From Anaerolineaceae bacterium (lineage in GTDB: Bacteria > Chloroflexota > Anaerolineae > Anaerolineales > Anaerolineaceae): a stretch of 64,000 nucleotides of DNA. A program made the translations under genes and the position numbers. The notes under the pieces are model-generated. The model was not told the origin of the DNA and did no database searches. It saw only the letters and a list, made by a program, of their open reading frames with translations. Each line of letters opens with the position of its first letter. Position 1 is the stretch's first letter. The stretch spans positions 310,001 to 374,000 of the forward strand of contig JAENZI010000001.1 in the NCBI GenBank assembly GCA_016841365.1. Direction: 5' to 3'. Below are positions 17,976 through 29,410 of this stretch, piece by piece.

Positions 17976-18584
17976 TTAATGCCCGATAAGCGGTAAATAG
18001 ATTTGGTAGATCGGGGTGGATGTTTCGAGCACATTAATTGTGAAGGCTTTTTCGTAAAACAAGCCGCCTGAATCTGTTGTGCGAACGCGGATGGAATAGG
18101 TGGTTTGCTGGTCATAATCCAATATTTGGGAGGTGCGGAGCAGCGCGCCTGAGATATTGAAGGCGCTGTTCCCCGAATCACCCGCGCCACTGACCAGTGT
18201 GTAGATGAAAATGTCGCCCGCATCGGGGTCGGTGGTTGTCAGCGTGCCAACCTGCGTGTTGGCTGGCAACCCTTCTTCAATGGTGTTGTTGTCAAGCTGG
18301 ATATTCGTGGGTGCCTGGTTTTCAACGGTCAACCCGCCGCTCCAGAACCCGCTGGCGAGGGTGAAATCCCCGCCAGCACTCACACCGGCATCGGGCTGAC
18401 CGGCAGCACCACTCAGGGCATAGCCCCCGCCGCTGCTTGAACCACCCCCATCAATAGAGTGCCATGACAAATCAAACAGGCCCCCCGTTTGCGCCAGCAC
18501 CGGCACCACCGCAAGCAAGGTGATTAAAAGGACGGCAGGTGCCCACCAGGGAGTTTTAGGTAGGTTGTGCTTGATGTGTTTCAT
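17976..18584 (-). CDS. Secreted cadherin-like repeat protein
   Basis: The 202-residue protein has an N-terminal signal segment ([15 protein letters not shown]), a Ser/Gly stretch, then one cadherin-like beta-sandwich domain with [20 protein letters not shown] and [21 protein letters not shown], the latter carrying the calcium-type DxD elements. It ends in [11 protein letters not shown], a hydrophobic YLPLI ending that I recall from many Chloroflexota secreted proteins and that may be a sorting or processing signal. Its ATG overlaps the stop of the giant S74 protein (ATGA) and GGAGG precedes it, so the two secreted proteins are translated together and may interact. Confidence 0.75.
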
Positions 18585-21500
18585 AATTCACCTCCGGGCC
18601 GGCGGCGCACAAAGTACACACCACCGAAGACGAGCAAACCAACACCCAAAAGCCATTGGAAGGGGACAGCATCGGCGTGATTTTGGTGATTCCCTGCGTT
18701 CATCATTTGTTCGAGGGTGGTTAATCGTGCTTCAAGGTCATCCACCTGGGCTTTAAGCTCCTGGTTCTCAGCATACAAGCCCTGGATGGCAGCCAGTGCC
18801 ACACCGTCCGCGTCCATGCTGTTGATGAAATCGGCGCCTTCGCCGCCCAAACCCGCCACCAGGCTGTTGAATTCATCCGCCATCATGCCGATGTGGATGC
18901 TGGATTCGTCCTGGGATTTGTAATTCCAGGTGGTGATGGGGTATTCTGCCAGCGCCTCCAGCAGGGCAGCATTATCGACCGGTATGAAGTTCTCTTTGTG
19001 TTCACGGTTGCTGACATTGCTCCAGCCGCTGTCTCCTGCGGCGATATATGACCCTAAGTTCAAATCAGCACTCGTGTAGAAATACACGCCGCCAGTGGCA
19101 CGCGCCACCCAGCGGTTATCAACATCACAAATCACATCTGCCAGGGTGGAATCCCCCCAGACAAAGCAGCCAGGGTTGTTGGCTTTTGCCTGGGTGCCAG
19201 CGGCAAAGCTGAAGGTTCCCACGGCAGAATTACCATAGCCACCCGGGATAGCTGCAAGTGCCCCGCTGGCGGTATTGTCCTGACCCCCACCCACCGTGCT
19301 AAATTCACCGCTGGCAGTGTTTTCCTGCCCGCCCGCTACCGTGGCATAGGTGGCACTTGTGGGGTATGCATCATTGTCGCCAGCCTGGTTGCCGGCGCCG
19401 CCGCCCACCGTGCAGTAGTCATCGGTTGCATAGTTTGCCCGTAAAAGGGGATCGTCAGCATCCGGCTCATAGGGCCCGCCGCCGGAGATGGTGGTGTATG
19501 CCGCTGTGGCTTGGTTATAGTATCCCCCGCCAATTGTTGAACGAACACCGCTGGCGGTGTTGCTAATTCCGCCACCAATGGCACTAGCAATACCGCTGGT
19601 GGCGTTGCCCCCGCCGCCGCTAATGGTGCTGGTATATCCGCTGGCGGTGTTGCTATCCCCACCGCCAATTGTTGAATTACTACTACTGGCAACATTAAAT
19701 TGGCCTCCTGAAATTGTTGACATATAACCAGAGGCAGCATTATCGTACCCTCCACCCACAGTGCTAAAGCCTCCTGAAGCCTCGTTTAGTTCACCGCCAG
19801 CAACTGTTGCATACTCTTCACGTGCTCTATTATGTGTCCCCCCGCCAACGGTTGTATAAGCTGCTGAAGCATCGTTACTCCTTCCTCCGCCGATAGTAGC
19901 ATAATTGCTTAACAGAGGGTCTCCGTCATCCCATCCAGCCTGGTTGTTACCGCCGCCGCCGATCGTGCCGTAGTCATCAAAGACATTGTTGTTGCGGAAG
20001 GTTGGGAGTGCCGGGTCACTGGGTCCGCCACCGGCGATGGTCGCGTAAGCCGCATTGGCAAAGTTGTTCCAACCGCCGCCGATCGTGGCAAAAAGTCCGT
20101 TGGCGATATTGTCCTTGCCTCCACTGACCGTGGCGTAGGTGGCACTTGTGGGGTCTCCATCATTGTCGCCAGCATGGTTGCCGGCACCGCCGCCCACCGT
20201 GCAGTAGTCATCGGTTGCATAATTCGCCCTCAAGATAGGATTCTCAGCATCCAGGTCATAGGGTCCGCCGCCGGAGATGGTGGTGTATGCCGCTGTGGCT
20301 TGGTTATAGTATCCCCCTCCAATTGTTGAACGATCGCCGCTGGCGGTGTTGTCATAGCCACCACCAATGGCACTAGCAATACCGCTGGTGGCGTTGCCCC
20401 CGCCGCCAGCGATGGTAGATCCTCCACCGCTGGCGGTGTTGCTAGCCCCACCGCCAATTGTTGAATTACCTCCGCTGGCAACATTAACTTGACCTCCTGA
20501 AATTGTTGACATATAACCAGAGGCAGCATTATCGTACCCTCCACCCTCAGTGCTAAAGCCTCCTGAAGCCTCGTTTTGATAACCGCCAGCAACCGTTGCA
20601 AAATTTTCACGTGCTTCATTATCCTCCCCCCCACCAACGGTTGTAAAAGCTGCTGTAGCATAGTTAAATCTTCCTCCGCTGACGGTAGCATACTCGCTTA
20701 ACTGAGGGTCTCCATCATCCCATCCAGCCCGGTTGCCCCCACCGCCGCCGATAGTGCCGTAGTCATCAAAGATTTCGTTGTTGGAAGTGGTTGGGGATGC
20801 CAGGCTACTGGGTCCGCCGCCAGCGATGGTCGCGTAAGCCGCATTGGCAAAGTTGTTCCAACCGCCGCCGATTGTGGCAAAAAGTCCGCTGGCAGTGTTT
20901 TCCTGCCCGCCCGCTACCGTGGCGTAGGTGGCACTTGTGGGGTCTGCATCATTGTCGCCGGCCTGGTTGCCGCCGCCGCCGCCGATGGTGCCGTAGTCAT
21001 CAAAGATAGTGTTGTTGGTGGTGGTTGGGAATGCCGGGTCACTGGGTCCCCCACCGGATATGGTCGCGAAAGCCGCATTGGCAAAGTTGTTCCAACCGCC
21101 ACCGACGAAGGCGTAATGGCTATTCTGGGGGTCGATATCATTGCTCCCAGCCTGGTTGCCGGCGCCGCCGCCGATGGTGCCGTAATTATCAAAGATTGTG
21201 TTGGTTGAGCCGCCGCCCAAAAAGGCATACAGACCGCTGGCGGTGTTTCCCTGGCCGCCGCCCAAAAAAGCATAGTTACCGCTGGCGGTGTTGGCCGTGC
21301 CGCCGCCTAAAACGGCAAACGGACTGCTGGCAGTATTCCCAATTCCACCGCCCAGAACGGCATACAACCCGCTGGCTGTGTTCTGATATCCCCCGCCGAT
21401 GAGGCTGCGATTGGCGCTGGCGATGTTCAGATACCCGCCCGTGATGGCGGCGTAATCCCCTGAAGCCTGGTTAGCGGATCCGCCACTGATGGTGCTGGCA

Positions 21501-23659
21501 TATCCGCTGGTAGCGTTCGTGGTACCGCCGCCAACGGTGCTATTCGCGGCGCTGGCAGCATTTTGGAACCCGCCGCCCACTGTGGCATATGCAGCATCGG
21601 TTGCCGTGCCTGCGTTATCGCCTGCCTGGTTGCCGGCGCCCCCGCCCACCGTGCAGAAGTCATCGGTGGCACGATTGTTGGTTGTGGTGGGATTGCCAAG
21701 GTCGCTGGGTCCGCCACCGGACACCGTGGTGTATGCCGCCCCAGCAAGGTTGTAATACCCGCCGCTGATCGTTGCATAGTCGAAGTTCGCACTGTTATTC
21801 GTGCCGCCGCCAATTGCCGCAGATACCCCCGAGGCTGCGTTAGAAGCGCCGCCAGGGATGGCGGCGTATAAACCGCCGGCTGTATTTAAATATCCCCCGC
21901 CCAAAAAGGCATAACTGCCGCTGGCGGTGTTCTGATACCCCCCGCCGATGAGGCTGCGGTTGGCATTGGCGATGTTCTGGTAGCCGCCAGCGATGGCGGC
22001 GTAATCTCCTGAAGCCTGGTTATAGGATCCGCCACTGATGGTACTGGCATATCCGCTGGCAGCATTCGTGGTACCGCCGCCAATCGTTGTGTTTGAGGCA
22101 CTGGCAGTATTCAGGAAACCGCCACCCACCGTGGCATAAGTCGCATCGGTTGCCGTGCCGGCGTTATCACCTGCCTGGTTGCCGGCGCCCCCGCCCACCG
22201 TGCCGAAATCATCGGTTGCGGTGTTCTGTATGGACGAGGTTGGATTTTCCGGGTCGCTGGGTCCGCCGCCGGACACCGTGGTGTAAGCCGCCCCGGCAAG
22301 GTTGTAATACCCGCCGCCGACAACGGCGTAGAGACCGCTGGCGGTATTGGAGATGCCGCCGCCAATCACGGCTGAATCTCCCGCCTGGTTGCCGCCCCCG
22401 CCGCCCACCGTCCCGAAGATGCCTGTGACGCTGTTTTCCAACCCGGCACCCCCGCCGCCCGAGATGGTAGCGCCATGCAATCCCGTTGATAGCCAGTTGC
22501 CTGAAAAACCGCCGATCAGGTTGGGGCTGGTGGCATGTGGTTCAAAGCGGAAGACCCGTTCGCCTTTGACCTTGACCTCCAATGGCTGGTCGTCGCTGGT
22601 GCCAAGGTAGTTACTCCCTGGTGTGGTGTCGGCATTGCCGGTTAAAGACCATCCAACACTGCCCCCGCCGCTGACCGGTTCGCATACCACGCTGCCATCG
22701 GCGTTGATGGATTGGATGGCGTAACCCTCACCGCAGCCAGTGCCCACGCGGGCTTGCAGCACGGATAAGTCTGCATCGAATGCCGAGCCCGTAAGGGTCA
22801 GCCCTGTGCCCGCGGTGTAGGTGGTATTGTCATCCGTTTCACAGGTTACCGTGCCGTCTTGATCAATGGCGCGGATGGCACTGCCTGCCATACAGGTCTC
22901 GCTGACACGGCGCTGGATATATGTGGGGTCAGCAGACAGGGTCACGTCGCCAATGGTGCCGCCGCCTAACATTCCCGTGCCGGCAATTACAGCAGTGATA
23001 TCACCGGCGCCGCCCGCCACGGCTTCGCACAACACCGTCCCGTCCAGGTTGACCTGCCGGATGGCATAACCACTGCCGCAGCTCTCGCTGATGCGTGCCT
23101 GGATGGCGGTTGTGTCTACGGAGAAGGTTGTGGCGGAGAGGGTCAAACCCGTCCCGGCTGTGTAAGTGGTGTTGTCGTCAACCGCGTCTGCAAAGCCAGC
23201 GGGCATGCCAGTTATACCGGTCCAGGGCACCTGGTCAGCAAGTGCTGCAGTTTTTGAATATAAGGCGTAGGGCGCTGCTGAGAGAAATTGACGGGGTGAA
23301 AGCGGGGTAAAGGTACCCGTGCCCGCCGGGCAGCGCACGGCGATATCCAACCAGCGGTTTTCACCCTGAAAGGCACCGGGTCCATAATCCAGCTGGACCG
23401 TGAAATATCCCTCATTAATGGGGATGCCGGATAAGATCCGTTCGCCGATTTGTGCGCCTTCGGTGAGTGCGTCATACAGCCCAAAGGTGAAATCGCATGT
23501 GCCAGAATACGGGGTACCACTGTTCTCTAATTGACCCTGGAAGGTGAAGGCTGTGCTCAACGGTGTGCTTCTCGACGCTTGCGCAGCAGCCATTCCGGGT
23601 AAAAGAAAAAGTAAGATTAAGCCCATCAGGCAAAAGATGAAAGTAAATCTGCTCTTCAT
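18581..23659 (-). CDS. Giant repetitive surface protein with S74 intramolecular chaperone domain
   Basis: The 1692-residue protein starts at the ATG at 23659 (AAGGAG upstream). It has a signal peptide ending in MAAAQA, a domain of about 110 residues with [18 protein letters not shown], and linker repeats. From about residue 400 to 1480 it consists of about 15-residue units around (I/V)GGGxxNxASG, interrupted by longer spacers with [10 protein letters not shown]. The repeats suggest a stacked beta-roll like YadA-type heads. Next comes a peptidase S74 domain with the Ser/Lys dyad S1550 and K1555 (SNREHK), a coiled coil, and a C-terminal membrane helix (1667-1685) followed by RRR. S74 domains drive trimer assembly of phage tail spikes and then cleave themselves off. 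Here the product is probably a trimeric cell-surface fibre. Confidence 0.8.
19230..22440 (-). repeat. Long-period coding tandem duplications inside the S74 protein gene
   Basis: The element around TCATTGTCGCC recurs at 19371, 20160 and 20949, an exact 789-base period (263 codons). Upstream in the gene, TTGCCGTGCC recurs at 21601 and 22150, a 549-base period (183 codons). The shorter unit of about 45 bases (15 codons) is superimposed. Both long periods keep the reading frame, so copy number can change without breaking the gene. Confidence 0.85.
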
Positions 23660-23838
23660 GTCTGTTCTCCTTTTGTTGAAGCAATGTAATCCGAAGGACC
23701 GCACGATTAAAAAAAGACCCACGCCACCGGGGATATTCAGTGAGTGGGCTGCGTAGGATAGGACATCTCGACTGGGACTTTGCCCCAGGCTTACAGCAAT
23801 ATTAAATTATGGCTCTGATGGTTGGGCTTATGTTTGAT
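23660..23838 (-). promoter_or_regulatory. Structured 5' leader with attenuator, candidate riboswitch
   Basis: The transcript predicted from the promoter at 23845-23873 has about 180 bases before the start codon. It contains a small hairpin CTGGG-GCAAAGT-CCCAG (about 23780) in a conserved-looking purine-rich context and then an intrinsic terminator 45 bases before the ribosome binding site. I compared it by memory with c-di-GMP, SAM, TPP, cobalamin and THF aptamers and found no match, so the class is unassigned. Confidence 0.5.
23709..23748 (-). terminator. Intrinsic terminator inside the S74 gene leader
   Basis: On the minus strand CCCAC pairs with GTGGG (plus an inner CAC/GTG) and is followed directly by TC and seven T. 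It stands upstream of the gene's ribosome binding site, where it can only act as an attenuator. Confidence 0.65.
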
Positions 23839-24131: not shown

Positions 24132-24137
24132 AAGAAG

Positions 24138-24212
24138 TCGGGGCGCTGGGATTCGAACCCAGGGCCTCTTACACCCCATGCAAGCGCGCTAGCCGGACTG
24201 CGCCACGCCCCG
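24138..24212 (-). tRNA. tRNA-Pro (anticodon GGG)
   Basis: The minus strand folds into a complete cloverleaf: acceptor CGGGGCG pairing with CGCCCCG, D stem GCGC/GCGC, anticodon stem CTTGC/GTAAG with loop ATGGGGT (anticodon GGG), and a T arm with GGTTCGAATCC. The discriminator is A, as usual for bacterial tRNA-Pro. CCA is not encoded, so it must be added after transcription. It is the only complete tRNA seen in the window. Confidence 0.96.
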
Positions 24213-24273: not shown

Positions 24274-25074
24274 TCAGGGTACGGTTCCAATTGCGTAGAA
24301 GGTTGGGATGAACAGGATGCGCTCCCGGTTGTGACGGGCACGCTGGTCAATGGCTTTAAATTCCGCCAGCCTTTCAGCCCTCAAATGGGATGCAAGGTCA
24401 TGCTGCAAAGCCATCCATTCGACCTCGTCTGGCTGTTCCCAGGTGGTTTGCGACCACAATGCCCCCAAAATGCCGACTTCAATGTCTTGCAAGCCGATTT
24501 GATGAAACAACTGACCGAGCCTGCGTCCAACAGCCACATGCGCGCCCTGGTTGCGAAGGGCTTGTGTTTGCAGTCCGCCCAATTCATCCAACGGTGGCGG
24601 AAAGTCAATCCGTGAAGGATGATCCGGTTCAGCCAGTGCAATGACGCTCCCCCCGGGGTGCGTCACACGCCGCATTTCCTGCAAGATTTGACGGGGGTGT
24701 TCGATCCACAATAAAAGGTAGTGGCACAGGGTGATCCCAAAGGTATGTTCCGCAAAGGGCAGGCGGTAGCCATCCGCTTGCGCCATCAATGCGGGGATAG
24801 GCTGATCTTGGGAGAAACGCAGGCTGAGTGGGTCAATGTCGATGCCGGTGAGTTGGTAATCGCCCTCCTGTTCCAAGCAAGTAAGCAGCGCGCCGGTCCC
24901 TGAGCCAACTTCAAGCACGTTGTGATTTACCTCAGAACCGGCTTTCTTGAGCAGGTAAGCCCGAATGTCAGCCGTCCACTGCGCCTGCTGCAGGTAACGC
25001 TGATGCCATCTTGCCAGTTCGTTTGCCTGATCGTCACCGGGGGTCACGAATGCTAATCCCAGATCGCTTCCCAT
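24274..25074 (-). CDS. Class I SAM-dependent methyltransferase in the radical SAM operon
   Basis: The protein of up to 266 residues has a seven-strand Rossmann methyltransferase fold. Motif I is HNVLEVGSGTGALLTCLE, the acidic residue that binds the SAM ribose is in GIDIDPLSLRF, motif IV is ITLCHYLLLW and motif VI is PGGSVIALAEPDH. The start is either ATG 25074, overlapping the preceding gene by 22 bases, or GTG 25047, five bases after that gene's stop; neither has a strong ribosome binding site, which fits translational coupling. As last gene of the operon with the Cys-Ala tail protein and two radical SAM homologues, it may methylate the same substrate. A small-molecule substrate cannot be excluded. 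Confidence 0.8.
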   Translation of the reverse strand: MGSDLGLAFVTPGDDQANELARWHQRYLQQAQWTADIRAYLLKKAGSEVNHNVLEVGSGTGALLTCLEQEGDYQLTGIDIDPLSLRFSQDQPIPALMAQADGYRLPFAEHTFGITLCHYLLLWIEHPRQILQEMRRVTHPGGSVIALAEPDHPSRIDFPPPLDELGGLQTQALRNQGAHVAVGRRLGQLFHQIGLQDIEVGILGALWSQTTWEQPDEVEWMALQHDLASHLRAERLAEFKAIDQRARHNRERILFIPTFYAIGTVP

Positions 25075-26204
25075 GGGTCTGTCAGCAGGTTGCCCAGCAC
25101 CCGGTCGTACATACCCTGTGCGGGTAAAACATCTCCATCTGGTTCGACATATAGCCAGGCTTTGCCTGCGCCTTCGGGCGGCTCCTGTGTCTCAGCGTTC
25201 TCTAATTCCAGTGAAACGGGGTTATTCCTCGAATAGGGCACCGGGAGATCCCAGACCAGCTCCAACTGCTGCACAGCGGCAAAGTCGCGCAAATTTTGCA
25301 GTTCCTCAGAAAGTCCGGCATCGGACGCACTCAGTGAGAGGGCGTTTGCCCCCATCTCAGCCAGGCGTGTGATATGCGGACGCAGGTTGTGTCCCTTTTC
25401 GAGGGTGAGGTGGACGGTTGTGTGGATGTCTTCAGGCAGGACTTTTGCCAGCGACTCCCATACGTTGGGGTTGTCCGGATCCAGGACAACCATCAAGTGA
25501 TCCAGACCGTTGAGCAGTAACTGCTGACGGAAATCATCATCCTTCAATCTCAGACCGTCTGTCAGCACACCTGTGACCAAACCCAGCTCTTCCGCCTTCA
25601 GGAGCAGTTCTGGTAAATCTTCTCGCAATGTCGGCTCGCCGCCGGTGAACAGGACGTGCGGAATGCCGATCTCGAACGCTTTTTGCAGGATGGTGACCCA
25701 CTCATCAGCCGTCAGCTCGCGATTGACCCGGTCGAGGGGTGCATGTTCGCTGTGGCTGCCTTCACCGACACGGTAGGTCAGGGCACAATCCAGTCGGTAA
25801 GGTGCAGCGATTTCTCCGGAGTAAGGTTCTTGCCTTTCAATATCAAAATAGGTGACGGGGTCAAGATCTGGTGTGTGAATGATTGTCTGGATCTGGTTGA
25901 GGAATTTGCCGAAGTCCAGCCGGGCTTGATCTTTTTCCACCTGGTAGCGGCGGGAAATTTCGTCCACAGCCTTATCCAAATCGTGTTTCTTGATAAAGTG
26001 ATAGGCGAATTCCGCCGCGGTTTGGTTGAGATGAAGTACGGTGGCGGCATTGATGATTAGGATGCCCGTACCGTCTTTCTCGATTCGAAGATGCAGCCGA
26101 TATTGCTCCTTCTCATCCGGCGGGGTTTGGTAACTGAACATGCCTGACGGGAGCGGTTCTTTTTCTGAAAATAAACGCTTGATGGATTGAAATAAGCTTG
26201 TCAT
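25053..26204 (-). CDS. Cysteine-less radical SAM pseudoenzyme with N-terminal PqqD-like domain
   Basis: The 383-residue protein is a paralogue of its upstream neighbour along its length. Residues about 40-110 form a PqqD-like peptide-recognition domain (LHLNQTAAEFAYHF, ISRRYQVEKDQARLDFGKFL). The radical SAM core keeps APYRLDCALTYR and the SAM-binding GGEPT (HVLFTGGEPTLREDLPEL). The three cluster cysteines are replaced: V146, S150 and E153 stand where the partner has C148, C152 and C155. The SPASM cysteines are also gone (GDVLPAQ for GDVLPCQ) and the last Cys-rich part is missing. Only one Cys (C140) remains in the protein. It cannot hold the 4Fe-4S cluster and probably acts as a scaffold or regulatory subunit. 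The start ATG 26204 has GGAG five bases upstream. Confidence 0.85.
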   Translation of the reverse strand: MTSLFQSIKRLFSEKEPLPSGMFSYQTPPDEKEQYRLHLRIEKDGTGILIINAATVLHLNQTAAEFAYHFIKKHDLDKAVDEISRRYQVEKDQARLDFGKFLNQIQTIIHTPDLDPVTYFDIERQEPYSGEIAAPYRLDCALTYRVGEGSHSEHAPLDRVNRELTADEWVTILQKAFEIGIPHVLFTGGEPTLREDLPELLLKAEELGLVTGVLTDGLRLKDDDFRQQLLLNGLDHLMVVLDPDNPNVWESLAKVLPEDIHTTVHLTLEKGHNLRPHITRLAEMGANALSLSASDAGLSEELQNLRDFAAVQQLELVWDLPVPYSRNNPVSLELENAETQEPPEGAGKAWLYVEPDGDVLPAQGMYDRVLGNLLTDPWEAIWD

Positions 26205-26215
26205 GTTCACTCCGT

Positions 26216-27592
26216 TCAATTGATGAACTCAAGATGATGGACTGGTTTTATGGTTTGGTGTTCTCTGGCTAAGGGGCAGCCGCCGCCGCATTCGATCAAA
26301 AAATCACAGGTGCGGCATCCTTCAGGGACATCTTCACGGTTGCGCAGTTTGAGCGCCAGCGGATGTTCCCAAATCTCTTTCCAGGGTTTTTCGAGGAAAT
26401 TGCCGAGGGATTCGTAATAAGATTGGCAGGGAAGGACATCGCCGTTGGGCTCAATGCACATATTGTACAGCGCAGCGGTGCAGCCCTTCACGCCCAATCC
26501 GAGCTGGATGGGGTTAAAATGGCAGTATTGTGTCGGCGTATACCAGATCAGACGCTGCTGATAAGAATCGGTGATGCGCCGTGCTGTTTCCAGCAGGTCC
26601 GGCAATTCTTCTTCGTGCAAGCCGGTGCCGACCTCTTTGCCTTTCCCGGCGTAGATCAGCGCATTAAGTCCCACAGTTGGGACACCAATCTCACCCAGGA
26701 AGTGCAGGGTTTGTTCAAGGCTTCCCCTGTTGTGGGTCAGCAGAGTGGTGTTCGTCATGATATACAGTTTTGAGGCGATCACATTTTTTAAGCCGGCGAC
26801 GGTTTCTTCCCATGCGCCTTTGGCGTTCACCATCCGGTCATGGATGGCTGCATCGTGTGACTCCAGAGTAATTTGGACGTGGTCCAACCCGGCATTGATC
26901 AGCGAGTCGAGATAATCCTGATCTGCAAGTTTTCGCCCGTTGGTGTTGAGCCCGGTGATCAAGCCGGTTTCCTCCGCATAAGCGACCAATTCCGGCAAAT
27001 CACGATAGAGGGTTGGTTCACCGCCGGTGAATACCACATGCGGGATTCTGAGCGACCAGATTTTGTCAATGGCTTTTTTCCATTGATCTGCAGACATTTC
27101 AGGAAAGGTGCGCAGTCGTGCATTGTAGCAATGGCTGCAATTATTGTTACAGCGGTAAGTGATCGCTAAATCCATGCGATACGGTGCACTGAGCTGGGCA
27201 CTGAAGGGTGCGGTGGTTTCAAGGTTCAGGTCACAAACCGGGCAAGCGCCATTCGGTTCAAGCAGTGTTTCGAGATTAAGACTGAAAATCAGGTAATCTT
27301 CTTGGGCTAAAGATTTTTTAACACGATATTGTTTTCTGAAAGCCCGTACGGCTTCCTTGAATGTAATCTCTTCAAGGTGCAGATAAGCCATAAACGCTGC
27401 GGAGGGGTTTAACTGAATCACGCGGTTGGCATTGATGATCAACAGCCCGCTGCCGTTCGGATCAATGCGTAGATGGATGCGGGATTTGCCTTCCGGTTCT
27501 TCACGCTGGTAATGATAGATACCTGGGTCAGGTGGCGCGGAGACTGAGATTGAACCTTTCAGGTTACCAAATAATGATTTAAGAGATTTCAT
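26216..27592 (-). CDS. PqqD-radical SAM-SPASM peptide-modifying enzyme, putative
   Basis: The 458-residue protein has an N-terminal PqqD-like domain (about residues 45-115; IQLNPSAAFMAYLHL, FRKQYRVKKSLAQEDYLIF), a CPVC pair, and a radical SAM core with C148-x3-C152-x2-C155 (RCNNNCSHCYN) and the SAM-contacting GGEPT. The C-terminal SPASM domain carries Cys in GCTAALYNMC, LPCQ, CRTCDF and ECGGGC, enough for two auxiliary clusters. This order (recognition domain, radical SAM, SPASM) is typical of enzymes that install thioether or carbon-carbon crosslinks in ribosomal peptides. The upstream gene encodes a protein with a seven-cysteine tail, the obvious candidate substrate. Its ribosome binding site lies in a hairpin (27606-27633). 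Confidence 0.85.
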   Translation of the reverse strand: MKSLKSLFGNLKGSISVSAPPDPGIYHYQREEPEGKSRIHLRIDPNGSGLLIINANRVIQLNPSAAFMAYLHLEEITFKEAVRAFRKQYRVKKSLAQEDYLIFSLNLETLLEPNGACPVCDLNLETTAPFSAQLSAPYRMDLAITYRCNNNCSHCYNARLRTFPEMSADQWKKAIDKIWSLRIPHVVFTGGEPTLYRDLPELVAYAEETGLITGLNTNGRKLADQDYLDSLINAGLDHVQITLESHDAAIHDRMVNAKGAWEETVAGLKNVIASKLYIMTNTTLLTHNRGSLEQTLHFLGEIGVPTVGLNALIYAGKGKEVGTGLHEEELPDLLETARRITDSYQQRLIWYTPTQYCHFNPIQLGLGVKGCTAALYNMCIEPNGDVLPCQSYYESLGNFLEKPWKEIWEHPLALKLRNREDVPEGCRTCDFLIECGGGCPLAREHQTIKPVHHLEFIN

Positions 27593-27652: not shown

Positions 27653-29410
27653 TTAGCGGCCGCCGCCGGCACAGGCACAAGCACAGCCGGCACAGGCACA
27701 GGCACAGGCGCAAGAGCTTCCGCCGCCGCCCCTGAATCCGCCCGAGCCGCTCCTGGTTGTGGTGCTGACGGGTATCGGGTTGGTGCGGTTGGTGATGCCA
27801 CTGGTGAATGCGGTCAGGTTGCCGACAACGCCAGCAGCCATGCCTGTTGCGCCGTTGATCACATTTGCGGCGAAATCAGAACCCGGGATATGTGGCAGTG
27901 AAGCCTGCCCGCCGGTGGATGGCTTGCCGACAGATACGCCGCCTGTTCCAACAGGGGTGACGCCGCCGCCAATTTGCCGGCGGTAGGTGGGTGAATAACG
28001 CGGCCACCACATGGGCACGAAAACCGGTCCGCCTGTGAAGGTGCGGCGTGTCCGGTCCTGATATTCGTTATCCAACATCGTCCATTCAAGCGTCTGATTG
28101 TAATTTTCGCTTTTGACTTCCGGTGTTTCAGCCTCTTCGACCATCTGCCATGCCCGGCGCATAATGTCTTCATAATAGGCGATGGATTCCTTCGTCGAGA
28201 AACCTTTCATCTTGCGAGAAACGCTGTTTACCAGATCGACCATCATCTTCTGCAAGGCAGTCCGCCGCTCTTTTTCAGGGCCTCTGAACGCTTCCAAGAA
28301 ATCCACTTCATAAGGATGCAGATTTTCAGGCAATTGCTCTGGAACCTCCAATTTAAGCGGGTCTTGCTGCAGAACAATCGCTGTTTCTTTTTTAAGCGTT
28401 CCGAAGAGGATCATCGTGAGGACTTTATCCATTGGTTGTTCCATCAGGATCGCCGCTTCAACCGCCGTCAGACCGCGTTTGATCCCATGTCCCTCGATTT
28501 TCATCTTGGGTGGCAGGTATTTCATCTTGCGTTTTTGTGCCCCAACAGTGCCCTGGTAAATGCTCCAGCCGAAAATTGCCATAAAGAACAGGCCGAACCC
28601 AAAGCAGCAAATATTCCCGCCTAATAAACTCCAGATCCAACCGGCAAAGCCTGGGCTGCTGGTTGAAGAATCGGGCTCAATGAAAACGGGTTTTTCGGCA
28701 ACAGTGTCTGCAGGTACGTAAGCCGCCGGGAAGGCACCGCCAAAGGTGTACCTGGAGTGCAGGTCTGCGTTATCCGTGAACCAATAGTAGTAGACCCGGT
28801 CACCTTCAGCCGTGCGCCCGATCTCGGTTGGTTCTGACTGCCCGGGCCAATTTTCGGGTGTGTAGTACACGCCCTCTTCATCGCCGACACCCGGGGGCAA
28901 GATCAGGGCGACTGCATATTCTGTGGACCTGCTTTTATCTGATTGAGAGTCAAAATAATTTGGCATCAGGTTAAAGCTGACGTAATTTTCCTGGTCACCC
29001 TGGTCATATGGATAAAGAAAATTCTGAATACCAGGGATCCACACGGATACGGTGCCAGAGCTCCCGGGCTGGATGGCATTCGACCCCAGATTTAGGGCGA
29101 ATCCAATGTCAACATAGGGCGAGTCTTCAATTTGAGTGATCGGCTGACCGTTGACATCTGCCTCGATCAGGCTTCGATTATAAGCAGATGAGGGCAAGCC
29201 AATGTCCACATACTCCATAGGGTCAGCCGAGGGATCGTTCTGGAACTCGTAGATATAGTTCAGGGATAAAGTGCCGTCTTCTTCAATGTAGGCATTTACC
29301 TCCGCATATGTGACTTCGAAAAGATAGACATCTTGTGCGGATGCAGGCGAAGGCAGTGCGAACAGGCTGAAAAACAGCAGTAATAGGAGAAAATGTCGAT
29401 ATTTATTCAT
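27653..29410 (-). CDS. DUF2207-like membrane protein ending in a Cys-Ala repeat tail
   Basis: The 585-residue protein has a signal peptide (to about residue 25, ALPSPASA), an extracytoplasmic beta-rich domain (26-250) of DUF2207 type, one strong membrane segment (256-285, with a CC pair) and a cytoplasmic region with a winged-helix-like part (300-400; GLTAVEAAILMEQPMDKVL). A Gly/Thr-rich linker leads to the C-terminal tail, where CACACACAGCACACAGGG occupies residues 567-584 before the final Arg. It holds seven Cys (567, 569, 571, 573, 576, 578, 580) separated by Ala or Ala-Gly. The predicted topology leaves this tail in the cytoplasm, reachable by the radical SAM protein encoded next. I read it as the substrate of that enzyme; metal binding by the tail is the main alternative. 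Confidence 0.8.
   Translation of the reverse strand: MNKYRHFLLLLLFFSLFALPSPASAQDVYLFEVTYAEVNAYIEEDGTLSLNYIYEFQNDPSADPMEYVDIGLPSSAYNRSLIEADVNGQPITQIEDSPYVDIGFALNLGSNAIQPGSSGTVSVWIPGIQNFLYPYDQGDQENYVSFNLMPNYFDSQSDKSRSTEYAVALILPPGVGDEEGVYYTPENWPGQSEPTEIGRTAEGDRVYYYWFTDNADLHSRYTFGGAFPAAYVPADTVAEKPVFIEPDSSTSSPGFAGWIWSLLGGNICCFGFGLFFMAIFGWSIYQGTVGAQKRKMKYLPPKMKIEGHGIKRGLTAVEAAILMEQPMDKVLTMILFGTLKKETAIVLQQDPLKLEVPEQLPENLHPYEVDFLEAFRGPEKERRTALQKMMVDLVNSVSRKMKGFSTKESIAYYEDIMRRAWQMVEEAETPEVKSENYNQTLEWTMLDNEYQDRTRRTFTGGPVFVPMWWPRYSPTYRRQIGGGVTPVGTGGVSVGKPSTGGQASLPHIPGSDFAANVINGATGMAAGVVGNLTAFTSGITNRTNPIPVSTTTRSGSGGFRGGGGSSCACACACAGCACACAGGGR

Follow-up and report, generated by a model that had tools for sequence, protein, structure and literature searches.

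A conserved radical SAM paralogue lacking all cluster cysteines is encoded beside a sactisynthase-like enzyme in Anaerolineaceae

Introduction

Radical SAM maturases that carry an RRE are usually regarded as single self-sufficient enzymes. The closest described systems are SkfB, SuiB and related RRE-radical SAM-SPASM/Twitch RiPP maturases, in which the RRE is followed by a partial barrel and a SPASM or Twitch domain; for SkfB, binding of the leader peptide is ascribed to the RRE, and the clusters sit in the barrel and in the Twitch domain (PMC6231123). Dph1-Dph2 (diphthamide) is a single radical SAM enzyme built as a heterodimer, with non-canonical chemistry and, as reported, Cys-bound clusters in both subunits. 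A conserved dead radical SAM protein is not new as a kind, since NCBIfam already holds a curated family named pseudo-SAM/SPASM (TIGR04347, haloarchaeal by name). A text search of the literature, partial in coverage and weak as a test, returned no described pair of active and dead radical SAM RiPP proteins and no mention of the Cys-Ala tail reported below.

Here we analyze a window of 64,000 nucleotides from an Anaerolineaceae bacterium (GCA_016841365.1, contig JAENZI010000001.1, positions 310,001 to 374,000), the window being this whole stretch, from whose first letter all coordinates are counted. It encodes two paralogues, P0001 and P0002, with the domain order of SkfB and SuiB. The locus differs from those systems in that two paralogues stand side by side, P0001 has no cluster cysteines, and the enzyme probably acts on a membrane protein's C-terminal tail rather than on a small precursor peptide. 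Unlike in Dph1-Dph2, the second paralogue, P0001, is devoid of cluster ligands.

Results

The pseudo-radical-SAM protein P0001 (383 aa; 25053..26204, minus strand) comprises a PqqD-like RRE, a partial barrel and a truncated SPASM hairpin with zero cluster cysteines. Its reading frame runs from an ATG at 26204, preceded by a GGAG-like ribosome site, to a stop codon ending at 25053. The original prediction of an intact frame that overlaps both neighbours holds for the frame but only in part for the overlaps: the 3' end overlaps the methyltransferase gene P0003 by 22 nt, whereas 11 nt separate the stop codon of P0002 from the ATG of P0001.

P0001 and P0002 are 35% identical (E 8e-72) over an alignment that spans nearly all of P0001, and this alignment bears out the earlier description of a paralogue stripped of every cluster cysteine. 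C148, C152 and C155 of P0002 correspond to V146, S150 and E153, in a former CxxxCxxC loop (25746..25769, minus strand) that is variable among orthologues. The LPCQ of the SPASM hairpin reads LPAQ (A362) within an otherwise retained, Cys-free EPDGDVLPAQG, and the CX2CX5CX3C part is missing because the protein stops approximately where the second, Cys-rich SPASM half of its partner starts. The single cysteine that had been counted in the 383 residues is C140 (codon 25785..25787, minus strand), located in predicted barrel strand 1. Retention of GGEPT, the GGE SAM-binding motif, and of the PqqD-like domain likewise proved correct, PqqD matching at 29.0 bits (Pfam cutoff 23.4). The RRE assignment (residues 21-110) combines this match with the predicted strands and helices, and PqqD was matched in 24 of 27 members (E 0.1). 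Radical_SAM scored above its cutoff (39 vs 29.5 bits) and SPASM below (15.4 vs 21.5 bits). P0001 contains neither the catalytic CxxxCxxC motif or a variant of it nor the seven-cysteine motif by which we judged SPASM domains (CX9-15GX4C-CX2CX5CX3C-C); kinship of the fold is nevertheless clear from the Radical_SAM score and from fold comparison. The predicted structure (mean pLDDT 78, built with 9 sequences) is matched along its length by SkfB and SuiB; the TM-scores are modest (0.55-0.61). Membership in TIGR04347 was rejected, as P0001 reaches 38.3 bits where the cutoff is 525, and the active partner scores better on that model. Prokaryotic viperin (defence) was rejected as well, the matches being partial and generic (32.8 and 60.7 bits) and the architecture being that of RRE/SPASM proteins.

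The active radical SAM/SPASM partner P0002 (458 aa; 26216..27592, minus strand) carries an RRE, the motif C148NNNC152SHC155, and the SPASM motifs CX12GX4C and CX2CX5CX3C. By sequence its best PDB match is SkfB (6EFN, 6e-22), and PqqE (6C8V) is also matched. P0002 and its relatives thus combine RRE, radical SAM domain and SPASM cluster motifs as expected of sactisynthases and RiPP maturases. Because the active paralogue has an RRE of its own, a second one is not obviously needed; the idea that the pseudoenzyme makes up for a missing RRE in its partner is unsupported as such, given PqqD matches in 20 of 21 active partners (E 0.1). Two active enzymes from genus g9, which is without the pseudoenzyme, gave no PqqD match.

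Both genes belong to a cassette that recurs with the same order in loci of the families f1, f2 and f3: first the gene of a small membrane protein whose C-terminal domain is zinc-ribbon-like (P0006; 29414..29782, minus strand), then those of the tail protein, the active enzyme, the pseudoenzyme, and the class I SAM methyltransferase P0003 (24274..25074, minus strand). In several f2 loci extra genes are inserted and separate the pseudoenzyme from the active enzyme, e.g., L111 5056-6453 (-) and L098 9752-10792 (+); the inserts encode a small PAS-like protein (21.0 bits, cutoff 23.1) and a protein of ~347 aa without Pfam match. Directly downstream of the methyltransferase gene lies a tRNA-Pro (ggg) gene (24137-24212, minus strand). 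The gene at 18581-23722 (minus strand) encodes a 1713-aa protein with dozens of GGG..NTASG-like repeats, a C-terminal Peptidase_S74 chaperone domain and a hydrophobic end; this is a large, repeat-rich surface protein from a member of the Chloroflexota.

The enzyme family is present in 129 of 147 family genomes, usually as two adjacent matches, one active and one inactive, and the named records that carry it belong to Anaerolineaceae, other Anaerolineae/Anaerolineales MAGs and Ornatilinea apprima, a named strain whose cassette is locus L039. Not one of 66 distinct full-length pseudoenzyme orthologues, drawn from Anaerolineaceae and two families sister to it, has CxxxCxxC, while CxxxCxHC, CX12GX4C and CX2CX5CX3C are each found in 70/70 distinct active partners; with such counts the loss pattern is not due to chance. 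Pseudoenzyme orthologues that retain the motif were found nowhere in f1, f2 or f3, and internal stops occurred in none of the matches listed in the family-wide search. Length limits of 330 and 380 aa removed the pseudoenzyme fragment L041 and short partner fragments from these counts, which also leave out the window's own loci (L001 and L002), fragments of the pseudoenzyme cut by contig or stretch ends and, among partners, the distant outgroup L149 and L150. The annotation HMMs were built without L015, L035 and L041, and L113 yielded no homologue.

In a tree of 107 proteins, one fully supported branch parts 49 pseudoenzymes from 58 active enzymes; the root was placed at the midpoint, and the order of the deepest branches is tentative. 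Given this single separating branch, the simplest reading is that the clusters were lost once, before the split of f1, f2 and f3, and that the pseudoenzyme probably has one ancient origin. Selection on the gene is purifying. NG86 estimates of dN/dS for close pairs, as the original prediction had proposed to compute, are 0.08-0.28 for the pseudoenzyme and 0.05-0.26 for the partner in the nine computable pairs of ten, one pair being saturated and several ORFs carrying untrimmed 5' extensions. The pseudoenzyme value exceeded that of the partner in 9/9 computable pairs, so that constraint is strong but slightly weaker than on the active enzyme. Among the readings weighed in this study, a recently inactivated, decaying gene has a vanishingly small chance of being right. 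The somewhat raised dN/dS would suit it, but the motif is gone in 66/66 orthologues across three families, frames are intact, and residues specific to the pseudoenzyme are invariant; the orthologue survey and dN/dS together rule it out. Both signs of decay named beforehand, orthologues with CxxxCxxC and frequently broken genes, were looked for, and with zero orthologues carrying the motif and no broken frame among the matches listed, the view of P0001 as a maintained pseudoenzyme is well supported. P0001 is a maintained paralogue without cluster ligands that is conserved order-wide.

Of 110 columns that are at least 95% conserved in active enzymes, core pseudoenzymes retain 49 and have changed 61. 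Some changed positions are again invariant in the pseudoenzymes (N281 to H265, C357 to S325, C379 to Y352, and G308 to S290), whereas N216, N218, E244 and S245, conserved in the active enzymes, are not kept. C140 occurs in 39/39 core pseudoenzymes, and a cysteine is found at this position or the next residue in 66/66 distinct full-length orthologues; the equivalent is Leu in 91% of active enzymes. The pseudoenzyme hence lost its cluster cysteines but gained one that persists. The original prediction had noted neither this gain nor the probable substrate described below. The GGE motif reads GGEPT in 51 of the 66, GGEAT in 10, GGEPA in one and GGEPL in one, and was missed by the pattern in three, two of which (L087 and L088) genuinely lack GGEPT. 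Within f2, where the active enzyme has changed GGEPT to GGEA/ST, the pseudoenzyme changed likewise in 10/14 cases, vs 0/29 where the active enzyme keeps GGEPT (pseudoenzyme motif read as A or P, kinship ignored). This parallel change suggests a coupling of both paralogues, albeit from few events. Gene conversion was rejected as its cause, third-position identity not being raised there in A/A pairs. Codons 181-205 of the radical SAM gene in L104 are 93% identical to the pseudoenzyme at the nucleotide level (92% at third positions), a possible local gene conversion.

Upstream of P0002 lies the gene of a 585-aa membrane protein, P0004 (27653..29410, minus strand), the likely substrate. It has a signal peptide, a beta ectodomain, one long membrane helix, a helical domain and a disordered linker; the signal peptide and the topology, with the helical part in the cytoplasm, were assigned by eye. 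In the predicted structure (mean pLDDT 57), confidence is limited to the ectodomain and a portion of the helical domain. P0004 had no NCBIfam match and a single Pfam model far below its cutoff (E up to 0.1). It may be called DUF2207-like on the basis of a relative in L150, the N-terminal domain of which matches DUF2207 (25.4 bits, cutoff 24.4); TIGR04222 was matched weakly and below cutoff in L149 and L150.

The protein ends in the tail CACACACAGCACACAGGGR (residues 567-585; 27656..27712, minus strand), a putative modification site that none of the matched family models covers. Sactisynthase and RiPP maturase systems have the gene of a Cys-rich ribosomal substrate next to that of the enzyme; the gene adjoining P0002 does encode a near-invariant Cys-Ala tail, but as part of a 585-aa membrane protein. 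The last 17 residues are invariant in six aligned members, and among 60 distinct DNA sequences of the tail, 50 end in CACACAGCACACAGGGR (44 + 4 + 2 by length). The 10 deviant tails all come from loci of g9, the genus without pseudoenzyme; the g9 difference counts as one phylogenetic event. Cys is encoded by TGC 209 times and by TGT 206 times, and Arg by all six codons; with codons free and residues near-invariant, selection acts on the residues. The tail DNA pattern was found in 119 of the 147 family genomes and in 28 of 400 genomes from the phylum, and the reversed control pattern was absent from the matches listed. Across the 147 genomes, tail pattern and enzyme family occur together in 118, neither in 17, the tail only in 1 and the enzyme only in 11 (Fisher p 5e-14, kinship ignored). 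Four of the 11 enzyme-only genomes (G036, G044, G048, G049) do encode the tail protein, its tail being a variant, and in G100 the contig breaks off within the partner gene. Outside the order, in G281 and G157, a distant single radical SAM homologue adjoins a membrane protein whose Cys-repeat tail is of another kind. At L149 8093-9847 (-) and L150 4052-5824 (-), related membrane proteins, with C-terminal Cys/His repeats of the ACHSACHSAC type, lie beside a single radical SAM/SPASM homologue, a second version of this type of system. Based on these two loci, the association of a radical SAM enzyme with a Cys-repeat-tailed membrane protein recurs with different tails.

Two genera depart from the common pattern. 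In g26 (10 sequences) the pseudoenzyme is degraded further: the SPASM hairpin and the remodelled residues drift, and identity among orthologues is 0.28 in the C-terminal part vs 0.63 elsewhere. For the RRE the values are nearly the same (0.49 in g26 vs 0.52 elsewhere), and L087 and L088, both from g26, have no Pfam Radical_SAM match while PqqD is still matched. Conservation of the RRE while the rest decays gives the strongest indication that this domain is the part that matters. In g9 the active enzyme is present in 12/14 genomes and the tail protein in the same 12. No pseudoenzyme was detected at the g9 loci examined, and the family search returned at most one match per genome, with a score as for the active enzyme; these single copies fall within the active side of the tree. 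As f2 and f3 have both genes, loss of the pseudoenzyme in g9 is the simplest reading, and since g9 does without it, the pseudoenzyme is not strictly needed for the job of the active enzyme.

Individual genomes deviate as well. G157 is from another family and has a contamination of 8%; its tail is canonical-like, and its locus lacks a pseudoenzyme. In G242 (97% complete, 140 contigs) the pseudoenzyme is intact, and the active enzyme and tail protein were not detected in the genome; this orphan (L148 2601-3752, minus strand) stands beside genes that by eye resemble those of leucine biosynthesis. The pseudoenzyme had also seemed missing in G058, G060, G072, G118 and G120, a reading we rejected, as the gene is cut there by the end of the contig or stretch. 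In G020, G080, G085 and G126 the contig ends before the pseudoenzyme position.

Discussion

P0002 is sactisynthase-like, P0001 has a predicted fold like those of SkfB and SuiB, and the RRE of SkfB is taken to bind its substrate's leader; on these grounds we read P0001 as an RRE subunit or presenter. We give a probability of about 0.5 to the reading that P0001 is a non-catalytic, RRE-bearing partner that serves P0002 in modifying the tail of P0004. The RRE of P0001, together in most lineages with the remodelled barrel pocket and its invariant C140, would bind the Cys-Ala tail, which is disordered and cytoplasmic, and present it to P0002. P0002 would then introduce radical modifications, most plausibly thioether cross-links as in sactisynthases, a suggestion that draws on the enzyme family and the Cys-rich tail, and the methyltransferase P0003 may add a further mark. 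We infer the partnership, the substrate, the chemistry and the role of C140 from the comparisons above, and a pair of active and inactive subunits, as the original prediction had envisaged, is plausible. A more specific version would be a two-component maturase in which the dead twin, with its RRE and its gained cysteine, offers the tail to the live one and also holds that tail to its strict form, the tail having drifted where the dead twin was lost; we regard it as tentative and somewhat doubtful. Against a partner role stand g9 without the pseudoenzyme, the tail in G157 without one at its locus, the orphan in G242, the single event behind the g9 tail difference, and the RRE that P0002 itself possesses.

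Some of the same observations would be expected if the pseudoenzyme merely shared the locus and had a role independent of radical chemistry, e.g., as a chaperone, regulator or membrane tether of the tail protein. G242 retains it with active enzyme and tail protein undetected, other genes part it from the active enzyme in several f2 loci, and even GGEPT is lost in L087 and L088. However, the other pseudoenzyme loci with sufficient contig have the active enzyme nearby in the same order, and the tail protein too where the stretch reached it, and the GGEPT to GGEA/ST change is shared in 10/14 vs 0/29 cases, within one family and with kinship ignored; we consider an independent role rather unlikely. 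Alternatively, the Cys-Ala tail could bind metals or thiols and be unrelated to the radical SAM pair, which would target something else. Its alternating cysteines and the Cys/His repeats of L149 and L150 suit metal binding, and in the g9 genomes G041, G045, G046 and G047 the active enzyme is encoded on another contig than the tail protein. Yet tail and radical SAM pair show strong co-occurrence and adjacency, and all 14 g9 genomes have both or neither of enzyme and tail protein, which makes a separate function of the tail unlikely.

It is quite unlikely that the pseudoenzyme is a catalyst of another kind, in which a pocket formed by C140, H265, S290, S325 and Y352 would bind SAM or the Cys tail for non-radical chemistry. 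Such a function would fit the GGEPT or GGEAT found in 51 + 10 of the 66 orthologues and the new invariant residues H265, S325, Y352 and S290 that replace invariants of the active enzyme, but N216, N218, E244 and S245 are not kept and the remodelled residues drift in g26.

The order-wide cluster-free twin forms, together with the degradation of most of the protein except the RRE in g26 and the loss in g9, a natural series on the non-catalytic parts of enzymes of this class. The cassette also suggests that a membrane protein is radically modified on its cytoplasmic tail, and such a target would extend the substrate range known for radical SAM maturases.
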